Positions 13,192 through 18,018 of a stretch of 64,000 bases of DNA are shown in pieces. Source of the DNA: Chrysoperla carnea (Eukaryota; Arthropoda; Insecta; Neuroptera; Chrysopidae); NCBI RefSeq assembly GCF_905475395.1, contig NC_058342.1, positions 1 to 64,000 on the forward strand. Direction: 5' to 3'. Position 1 is the stretch's first letter. The number at the start of each line of letters is the position of its first letter. The position numbers and the translations under genes are program-made. Under the pieces are notes generated by a model. It ran no database searches. It was not told the origin of the DNA and worked only from the letters and a program-made list of their open reading frames with translations.

Positions 13192-13231
13192 GGCAACAGC
13201 CATACCACGTTGAAAACACCGGTTCTCGTCC
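13192..13231 (+). pseudogene. 5S rRNA 5' part, unit 2 (split)
   Basis: 5S nt 1-40. Left target duplication at 13221-13231; the gene resumes after the element at 17941. Confidence 0.95.
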
Positions 13232-13562
13232 ATTATCTGTACAGCGTTCATACAGTACAGTACAGTGAATTGTTGAAGCAAATTATTGTATAACTACATT
13301 CAAAGCGAAAACAATTTCATACACACACCTACAGAACAAGTTAAATCAAATATAAAAAAGTATAAAAACAAACTATAAAATAAGTGACGGGCGTAGCCAA
13401 ACAAAAAAAAGGGGGCGACCGAGTCGCTCCCCTGCTATCACTAAAGTTTTAAAAGTGCAACCCGATGACGTCGGAATACAACAAAGCACCGAAGAAGAAG
13501 CCAACAAAATAGAAAAAATAGTTAGTGAAAATAGCGAGAACACAAGTGCAGTGCCTCCAAGA

Positions 13563-14801
13563 ATGGAAAACCAAAACAAAAACAATATACAAAACATTTT
13601 CAAAAAACAAACAGAAGTGCAAGTGCAAGTGCCCACAAAAAACAGATTTAATCCCCTAACCACTGAAGAAGGTCAAATAGTGGAAGATGTGGAACAAGAA
13701 GACACAGACCCAAAAGAAATTAATGAAAATGACAAAAACACAGAAAGGACACAAGGAGGTAAGAATAAACCACCTCCAATTGTTATACACAGCACTCCAA
13801 ATAACCATAAGGAGTTCATGGAGCAAATAAAGGAACATGTGAAAAAGGGATTCCATGTGAAATACACGTTCAAAAAAACGAATCTATTCATCCATGACTC
13901 AAATGAATATAAAAACTACGTCAAAATGCTGGACAACGAAAACATGGAGTTCCATACATACACGGAAAGGACAGAAAAACACCACGCCTTCGTATTGGTC
14001 GGGCTACCAAGAGGAATCGACGAAGAGGAAATTAAGCAAGACATAGAGAAATGCCTCAAAACAAACATTATTAAAGTATATCCAATGAGATCCTCCTACA
14101 GATCTCTATATCTTGTGATCACCGGACAAAGCACGTCCCTAAAACAACTAACCCAAGAAGTTAAATATGTGTACAACGTAAAAATTACCTGGGAAAGGCA
14201 CAGGAACGCCAAACTAATTATCCAGTGTCACAGATGTCAGGCCTGGTCACATGCCACTACGAACTGTAGAATGAACCCAAAGTGCCTAAAATGCGCAGGA
14301 CCTCACTGGAGCCGTGACTGTACAATAAAAGAAAACACGGAAGAAAATAAAAAACTTTTAAAATGTGCAAACTGTGAAAATAACCACCCGGCAAACTCTA
14401 CAGAATGCCGAATTTATATCAACAAAATCGAGCAGATAGAAAGGAGAAGAAAAACAAACACGGTCCCTGTAAGAAATCAACAAAAATTCGTGCCAGCACC
14501 ACTACCTCCAACAAATGCCTGGGCAATGGGAAACCCATTCACTCAAAATGATAGACCCACCCAAGTGTACGCTCATGTACACAGCCAAGCACCAACACAA
14601 ACAACATCCATATCTACTACTACTAACATAAACAATTTGGTAAGTGAGTTTGACACATTAAACAAATTAATAGATGTAGAAAGAATGCTAAAATATGTAA
14701 AAGACCTAAACCATGACCTTATGAAATGCAAAAACGAATTAGAGAAATTCATGGTTTTCAACAACTTTTGCACAAAAAATTTTAGCCAATGTCCGCCGTA
14801 A
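13563..14801 (+). CDS. Retrotransposon ORF1 (gag-like, zinc knuckles), copy 1
   Basis: Nucleic-acid-binding ORF1 protein, 412 residues from the first in-frame ATG. The N-terminal half is hydrophilic and Asn/Lys/Glu-rich. A central segment (GFHVKYTF through VKITWER) resembles the RRM-like region before the knuckles in Jockey ORF1 proteins. Three knuckles at about 14227-14410 follow: C-X2-C-X4-H-X4-C, C-X2-C-X3-H-X4-C and C-X2-C-X3-H-X6-C. The frame is open upstream to 13356 and looks protein-like (TKKRGRPSRSP), but has no ATG there; a GTG at 13455 and ATA codons are the only near-cognates. The true start may be non-AUG. It ends CPP-stop, overlapping ORF2. Confidence 0.9.
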   Translation: MENQNKNNIQNIFKKQTEVQVQVPTKNRFNPLTTEEGQIVEDVEQEDTDPKEINENDKNTERTQGGKNKPPPIVIHSTPNNHKEFMEQIKEHVKKGFHVKYTFKKTNLFIHDSNEYKNYVKMLDNENMEFHTYTERTEKHHAFVLVGLPRGIDEEEIKQDIEKCLKTNIIKVYPMRSSYRSLYLVITGQSTSLKQLTQEVKYVYNVKITWERHRNAKLIIQCHRCQAWSHATTNCRMNPKCLKCAGPHWSRDCTIKENTEENKKLLKCANCENNHPANSTECRIYINKIEQIERRRKTNTVPVRNQQKFVPAPLPPTNAWAMGNPFTQNDRPTQVYAHVHSQAPTQTTSISTTTNINNLVSEFDTLNKLIDVERMLKYVKDLNHDLMKCKNELEKFMVFNNFCTKNFSQCPP

Positions 14802-17502: not shown

Positions 17503-17576
17503 AAGAGCCTGTGGCGTCGTGCCAGCGTTCCCGACTGGCACTCCGAAAGCAGGCGTTCAAGTCCCACGCAAGGCAT
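17503..17576 (+). other. GC-rich structured island in element 3' UTR, copy 1
   Basis: 74 bp of GC-rich sequence in an AT-rich 3' UTR. A perfect 7-bp hairpin GTGCCAG (17519-17525)/CTGGCAC (17535-17541) is followed by GCGT/ACGC flanking GTTCAAGTCC, which resembles a tRNA T-arm and B box. Kept in all copies long enough to include it. A site for recognition by the element's own RT is plausible; a tRNA-derived origin is speculative. Confidence 0.6.
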
Positions 17577-17929
17577 TAAATTTTTTTTTCTTTTTAAATC
17601 TAATTTTACATGCAAAAACACATAGGCAATGGGCAATATAAGTTTGCCACAGCTATTGCCTAAAACATAAAACAGGTTTTTAAAAAATTTTCCTGTAAAG
17701 AGCATATCAACAAAAATTAACTTAACATATACCTGCTCAAACAAATAAATTAAATATCATAAGCATAATTGCGACACAGCAATCTGCATGAAAGAAAAAT
17801 AAGTTAGGATGAAAGCCTTTTAAGGCTAATAACCTATAATAGTAAATAAAAGTTTTGTAATATATGTTATGTATGTAATGTATTGTATTTTTAAATGTTG
17901 ATTAATAAACTGTTTTTGAATTTGAATTT

Positions 17930-18018
17930 GGTTCTCGTCCGATCACCGAAGTTAAGCAACATTGGGCACAGTCAGTACTTGGATGGGTGACCGCTTGGGA
18001 ACACTGTGTGCGGTTGCC
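17930..18018 (+). pseudogene. 5S rRNA 3' part, unit 2 (split)
   Basis: Right target duplication (17930-17940) and 5S nt 41-118, followed by the T run. It retains the internal control region. Confidence 0.93.

Follow-up and report, generated by a model that had tools for sequence, protein, structure and literature searches.

A LINE in the 5S rRNA genes of this genome is very probably an active or very recently active member of the Jockey clade that enters one site of the gene by target-primed reverse transcription. We examined a 64 kb window, the first 64 kb of contig C6 (genome size 559 Mb). All five window copies of the element are inserted in the sense of a 5S gene, between its nt 40 and 41, and each is bounded on both sides by the exact 11-mer GGTTCTCGTCC, which forms nt 30–40 of the three intact 5S genes (starting at 6738, 29026 and 35484; Table 1). 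A search that allowed up to one mismatch returned 13 matches to GGTTCTCGTCC in the window, every one exact and on the forward strand, compared with a chance expectation of 0.09 on average and 1 at most (100 dinucleotide shuffles of the window). Re-reading thus bore out the original prediction that five insertions share one position, one strand and an identical 11-bp duplication, and that the two full-length copies carry intact ORF1 and ORF2, both frames being open in each.

A 5S-histone array with a LINE in its 5S genes

The window holds an array of tandem units of about 6.45 kb, each consisting of a 5S rRNA gene with H3, H4, H2B, H2A and H1, and aligned tandem units are 99.5–99.9% identical. 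In insects, 5S genes and histone clusters are known to co-locate (PMC11354594, accessible text). Rfam identified eight 5S genes or 3′ parts of them in the window, of which three are intact and five are split by the LINE. The 5S gene measures 119 nt here. A genome search with the intact gene found at least 40 perfect 150-bp matches among 1159 candidates, so many intact target sites are left. Seven window units also carry, some 140 bp ahead of the 5S gene, a degenerate partial 5S sequence corresponding to the 3′ part.

The two full-length window copies differ by 7 mismatches and one gap, and copy 3 has an additional C at its 5′ junction. The truncated copies start at element nt 3557 (copy 4), 3588 (copy 5) and 4428 (BLAST). 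In each split gene the upstream piece keeps nt 1–40, while the downstream piece runs from nt 30 to the end and has no 5′ end of its own. The internal promoter, we assume, goes with the downstream piece; with an upstream piece that has no promoter and a downstream piece that has no start, a split 5S gene is presumably dead.

Table 1. Positions of array genes, insertions, target sites and reading frames in the window. TSD, target site duplication.
Feature	Position	Strand	Remark
Intact (empty-site) 5S rRNA gene	6738..6856	+	Rfam
Intact (empty-site) 5S rRNA gene	29026-29144	+	Rfam
Intact (empty-site) 5S rRNA gene	35484-35602	+	Rfam
Degenerate partial 5S	13001-13054; six others at 6547, 28835, 35288, 41747, 52913, 60527		
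Reference tandem unit, 6,458 bp	29026..35483	+	begins with 5S (+)
H3 in reference unit	29571-29981	-	named from N-terminal sequence
H4 in reference unit	30307-30627	+	named from N-terminal sequence
H2B in reference unit	31480-31851	-	named from N-terminal sequence
H2A in reference unit	32164-32538	+	named from N-terminal sequence
H1 in reference unit	34425-35135	+	Pfam match on another unit
Copy 1, 5′-truncated, 271 bp	199..469	+	TSDs 188-198 and 470-480
Copy 2, full-length, 4,698 bp	13232..17929	+	
5′ TSD of copy 2, GGTTCTCGTCC (5S nt 30-40)	13221..13231	+	
ORF1 of copy 2, 448 codons from first GTG	13455..14801	+	frame open upstream to 13374
ORF2 of copy 2, 888 aa	14789..17455	+	13-bp overlap with ORF1
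3′ UTR of copy 2, ending in (GAATTT)n tail	17456..17929	+	GC-rich hairpin ~17507-17554
3′ TSD of copy 2, GGTTCTCGTCC, then remainder of 5S gene	17930..17940	+	
Copy 3, full-length, 4,701 bp	41978..46678	+	TSDs 41967-41977 and 46679-46689
ORF1 of copy 3	42202-43548	+	open
ORF2 of copy 3, 888 aa	43536..46202	+	open
Copy 4, 5′-truncated, 1,149 bp	53144..54292	+	TSDs 53133-53143 and 54293-54303
Copy 5, 5′-truncated, 1,118 bp	60758..61875	+	TSDs 60747-60757 and 61876-61886
Second LINE, at H2B	20798..25456	-	TSD CGTGTCGTGTA at 20787-20797 and 25457-25467
ORF2 of second LINE, 882 aa	21210..23858	-	
ORF1 of second LINE, 457 aa	23855-25228	-	
Empty H2B target of second LINE (site A)	31911..31921	-	
Empty H4 target of second LINE (site B)	30219..30229	+	

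Genome-wide site specificity and probable mode of insertion

We employed three genome searches, with ORF2 (best 51 of 2595 candidates scored), with the 3′ UTR plus duplication (best 40 of 98) and with a divergent 3′ end (best 40 of 92). Merged by position, they yielded at least 68 distinct copies on 11 contigs. The 51 scored ORF2 copies are all full length and at least 99% identical, one of them with a stop, and the 40 scored matches of the 3′ UTR search all align through the duplication. The 3′ junction lies in 5S at the nt 30–40 site in 66 of the 68 copies, 43 of which were read base by base (29 of L001–L030, 7 of L101–L107, 4 of L115–L118 and 3 further window copies) and 23 by alignment only. 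The exact 11-mer is present at 42 of the 43 base-read 3′ junctions, the exception being L117, where GG is missing. At the other end, 5′ junctions could be read in 49 of the 51 ORF2-search copies; all are in 5S, 48 with the exact 11-mer, and in L056 the junction is a run of N. Three junctions are irregular: the 5′ duplication is shortened in L091, GG is missing in L117, and L022 has no tail. In L093 the element is slightly truncated.

One copy (L020/L069, contig C108) has its 5′ junction in 5S and is cut before its 3′ end by another element. The interrupting sequence in its 3′ UTR resembles an LTR retrotransposon that carries a gag-like frame.

The sole off-5S copy among the 68, at C6:6843608 (L114), lies beside tRNA-like sequence. 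Specificity for 5S is therefore strong, as predicted from the window: the 3′ junction is in 5S for 66 of the 68 copies found, and where many copies outside 5S with other duplications would have spoken otherwise, the best-scoring candidates included one. Because the searches score the best candidates, old diverged copies elsewhere may have been missed. The flank of L114 (C6:6843850-6843980) contains a tRNA-like 3′ half, CCGGG TTCGAGT CCTGG, followed by a T run; Rfam gives no tRNA call for it.

The sequence displays fixed junctions, an 11-bp target duplication, a single orientation, 5′ truncations and tails that vary in length. At the 3′ end of the element the fixed point is before nt 30, and at the 5′ end it is after nt 40. 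On the pattern of established LINE biology, the element's own AP-like endonuclease would first make a nick on the antisense strand, between nt 29 and nt 30. The 3′ end freed in this way would prime reverse transcription, beginning at the (GAATTT)n tail of the element RNA, and a cut in the sense strand after nt 40 would follow and create the 11-bp duplication. The G or GG that tail and target have in common may aid pairing of the RNA end. For the host, damage is presumably kept small because the element lives in a gene that has many near-identical copies.

The extra bases that separate the duplication from the usual start ATTATCTG differ among copies (none, C, CCC, G, GC or GTCCG), and so does the length of the tail. 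These differing truncations, extra bases and tails indicate many separate insertions. Both ORFs are open in 27 of 30 loci, and divergence across 18 copies averages 0.45% (largest 0.79%; L069 is excluded because it ends in the inserted foreign element). ORF2 in 18 open copies shows 24 synonymous and 15 nonsynonymous variants (pN/pS 0.17). Together, the open frames, low divergence and low pN/pS point to recent spread under coding constraint.

Two readings would dispense with recognition of the 5S sequence by the element. In one, the copies descend from a single chance insertion into 5S, or a few, that unequal crossing-over and gene conversion then amplified within the histone-5S array. The identity of 99.5–99.9% between units does imply an array that is being homogenised, and some copies have the same ends (5 of 18 loci, with no extra 5′ base and the same tail). 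The truncated copies, however, begin at differing element positions and yet all end at one site, the 18 loci with both ends read show 12 distinct combinations of 5′ extra and 3′ tail, and the copies are spread over 11 contigs. Such varied ends, as read in the sequence, are marks of target-primed reverse transcription rather than of one insertion copied with the array. Array exchange must move copies as well, but the differing truncations, extra bases and tails rule out homogenisation alone as the means by which a single insertion spread, and we regard amplification without target specificity as very improbable. Less improbable, but still unlikely, is that a host factor steers the element to genes transcribed by Pol III rather than to the 5S sequence itself. 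Its attraction lies in L114, the single off-target copy, which is followed by a tRNA-like T arm and whose first 11 flanking bases end in TCC, as the 5S duplication does. Against this stand the base-fixed junctions of nearly all copies read, which suggest sequence recognition by the endonuclease; L114 is, moreover, one off-target copy only, and Rfam does not confirm a tRNA gene there. We therefore favor target-primed reverse transcription directed at the 5S site itself.

Anatomy of the element and its probable affiliation with Jockey

ORF1 comprises a low-confidence N terminus, two predicted RRMs, three CCHC knuckles and a helical C terminus. Its GTG start is assumed, and with the frame open further 5′ the N-terminal boundary is provisional. 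The ORF1 structure model has a mean pLDDT of 68.2 (171 of 475 residues below 50), and its residues 136–275 form two units with the strand-helix order of RRMs. Foldseek matched it to tandem-RRM proteins with a best E of 5.5e-5 but low TM-scores (0.13–0.20 of the query). The C and H residues of the three CCHC motifs are invariant across 14 aligned ORF1s, an alignment from which P0135 was left out for its length and helicase-like name. ORF2 encodes an endonuclease (Pfam matches within residues 7–208) and a reverse transcriptase (490–740). The ORF2 model (mean pLDDT 78.8) matches L1 ORF2p, R2 and the endonucleases of L1, TRAS1 and R1Bm.

The tails are (GAATTT)n-like, mostly of 1–3 units, and absent in L022. 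The 3′ UTR hairpin folds better than shuffles (z about -2), and the region 17507–17577 contains a B-box-like GTTCAAGTCC followed by a T run. These features prompted us to consider a tRNA gene in the 3′ UTR, which found no support: ARAGORN (bacterial settings) detects no tRNA in the window, and Rfam yields only 5S.

Jockey-clade elements encode an AP-like endonuclease and a reverse transcriptase and are not known to encode an RNase H. ORF2 fits this domain set, since Pfam at E 0.001 gives only Exo_endo_phos, Exo_endo_phos_2 and RVT_1, with no RNase H among them. A poly(A) tail is usual in Jockey without being strictly defining; here (GAATTT)n stands in its place. PMC4120745, in its accessible part, gives every element of the Jockey lineage one or two RRMs followed by three CCHC domains, the arrangement predicted for our ORF1, and names arthropods as hosts of the clade. 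The same source reports this ORF1 type in some subgroups of CR1 and L2 as well, and cites older work for its presence in I and R1 elements; ORF1 alone therefore does not decide the clade.

A search for relatives of ORF2 gave 1386 matches at E 1e-10 (7988 candidates scored), the best 120 of which are 65–37% identical; two of the listed relatives are named X-element by their sources. Trees were built from relatives only, with 65 rows (57 proteins and 8 outgroup rows) and 28 rows, the rows being drawn from the best 120 of the 1386 matches plus two window proteins. The element groups with P0005 and P0006 (support 100/99 in the 28-row tree) inside a supported set of similar proteins, and Asbolus (a beetle), Menopon and X-element-named Hymenoptera proteins lie further out. 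Where lengths are given, the close relatives P0005–P0025 come from contigs of 2,143 to 5,215 bases. Searching viral contigs with the element returned one fragment (38%), and genome contigs returned 18 loci at 22–32% identity, 8 of which served as the tree outgroup; these 18 are probably eukaryotic contaminants. Among the matches listed for ORF1, ORF2 and H1, species-named relatives are nearly all insects, several of them beetles, and one H1 match is named as a plant. In all likelihood the element belongs to the Jockey clade. The likely placement draws on sequence comparison and on trees made of relatives only, and the unusual tail counts against it. The earlier description of the proteins as Jockey-like agrees with the ORF1 type, the relatives and the ORF2 domains.

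The zebrafish element Mutsu belongs to the Tx1 clade. Our element could in principle be a described 5S-specific lineage of that clade, Mutsu, which merely looks like Jockey, for Mutsu likewise targets 5S genes (PMC3706591 and PMC11202950, accessible parts). We consider this very improbable. The relatives, some of them from named insects, are 65–37% identical among the best 120 of 1386, and ORF1 is of the RRM plus three-CCHC type. L1 ORF2p, used as the nearest proxy of the L1/Tx1 group, scores 97 bits versus 1314 for the best relative, and on such proxies we consider membership of L1/Tx1 unlikely. A 5S insertion site is a property of Tx1/Mutsu that our element has as well, but a target in common does not show membership. 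The distance from L1 and the nearness to arthropod elements make it likely, short of proof, that 5S targeting arose here separately from Tx1/Mutsu, so the independent origin that had been proposed stands as a probable reading rather than an established one.

Known systems, a second LINE and wider meaning

Site-specific non-LTR elements include R1 and R2 (28S) and TRAS/SART (telomere repeats), of which R1, TRAS and SART have AP-like endonucleases. The ORF2 model resembles the TRAS1 and R1Bm endonuclease structures, whereas R1, R2 and TRAS/SART differ from the 5S element in target and in RT clade. HeT-A, TART and TAHRE occupy a telomere niche; they are Jockey-clade elements in a restricted niche, as the 5S element probably is, but they target chromosome ends and no base-exact gene site. 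The assignment of TART to the Jockey clade is given in the accessible text of PMC4120745. Mutsu shares with our element its two-ORF non-LTR structure and its specificity for 5S rRNA genes (PMC3706591 and PMC11202950, in part), while its RT lineage would be a different one. Dada-5S of fish also targets 5S genes (PMC8869645, in part), but it is a DNA transposon with an unrelated mechanism.

The closest parallel is in the beetle Tribolium freemani. According to the accessible text of PMC11202950, its 5S-satellite arrays are regularly interrupted by Jockey-like elements of about 5 kb, the copies of which are mostly associated with 5S and otherwise dispersed and slightly more divergent. The same text gives a 5S length of 121 bp and reports 113 5S copies, 32 of which are missing 30 bp from their start and occur solely together with the Jockey-like element. 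Both systems thus have 5S arrays in which Jockey-like non-LTR elements, some 5 kb long, are a regular interruption, and the 30 bp missing from the 5S start there resemble the post-insert 5S piece here, which lacks nt 1–29. Since insertion at nt 40/41 with duplication of nt 30–40 leaves a copy without nt 1–29, we infer that the T. freemani elements, compared by description, use the same 5S site. In T. castaneum, about 20 5S copies are short by 30 bases at the other end with no Jockey association (PMC11202950, accessible text), so shortened 5S genes can arise otherwise. The systems differ in that 5S lies with satellite DNA in T. freemani and with histone genes here, and in the dispersed Jockey-like copies outside 5S reported there. 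The accessible T. freemani text (PMC11202950) describes no target site, duplication, strand, separate insertions or target specificity. Our literature search, with subscription papers largely outside its reach, found no report of another Jockey element specific for 5S. The novelty first suggested for the family therefore holds in part: nothing else emerged on a 5S-specific Jockey element, but 5S-associated Jockey-like elements are already published for one beetle (PMC11202950, in part), and the 5S element is not wholly new.

A second LINE in the window lies at the start of an H2B gene. It is distant from the 5S element, with a top identity of 35% to any row of the 28-row tree. A search with its 3′ UTR found 18 places, all scored, and each of the 7 copies read lies at a histone gene start, 3 at H2B (the window copy, L109 and L110) and 4 at H4 (L108, L111, L112 and L121); the 11 remaining places include some old or partial ones. 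L112 and L121 are far from the window array, at 9.3 and 13.9 Mb of C6, and L121 is part of an ORF2 copy 92% identical to the second LINE. At both H2B and H4 the orientation is the sense of the gene, and TATATAA begins 20 bp before the 3′ junction, give or take a base or two common with the tail. The duplications are between 11 and about 16 bp long, and copies vary in their extra bases and tails. Similarity between the two sites hardly goes further than TAC at the nick and CGCTCA...TACAT on its far side. From these junctions, the second LINE looks targeted to H2B and H4 gene starts, and the matches listed in our literature search include no report of histone-gene targeting by such elements. An open ORF2 at C7:124800-127352 (reverse strand), 35% identical to that of the second LINE, lies inside a histone-5S contig and is absent from the best 51 of 2595 scored copies of the 5S element; it possibly represents a third LINE family in the arrays.

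On balance we favor a joint reading in which Jockey-like LINEs evolved base-exact targeting more than once within one host repeat, as a family at 5S nt 29/30 and a distant family at H2B and H4 starts (3′ junction 20 bp after the TATA start, gene sense). The 5S-histone unit would then be a common safe harbour whose sites are divided, and the beetle cases of 5S-associated Jockey elements, T. freemani included, would fall in the first lineage. If this is true, targeting of a gene site by an AP-like endonuclease would have arisen once more, in a base-exact Jockey-clade family, and with many related proteins to compare, one could ask which changes in the endonuclease create specificity. With the second family sitting at the histone starts of the 5S-histone repeat, two targeting solutions could be compared in one genome. 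Insertion at 5S nt 40/41 could also account in a simple way for the T. freemani 5S pseudogenes that are shortened by 30 bp, and the 5S-histone repeat would lend itself naturally to testing how elements settle on a safe home.
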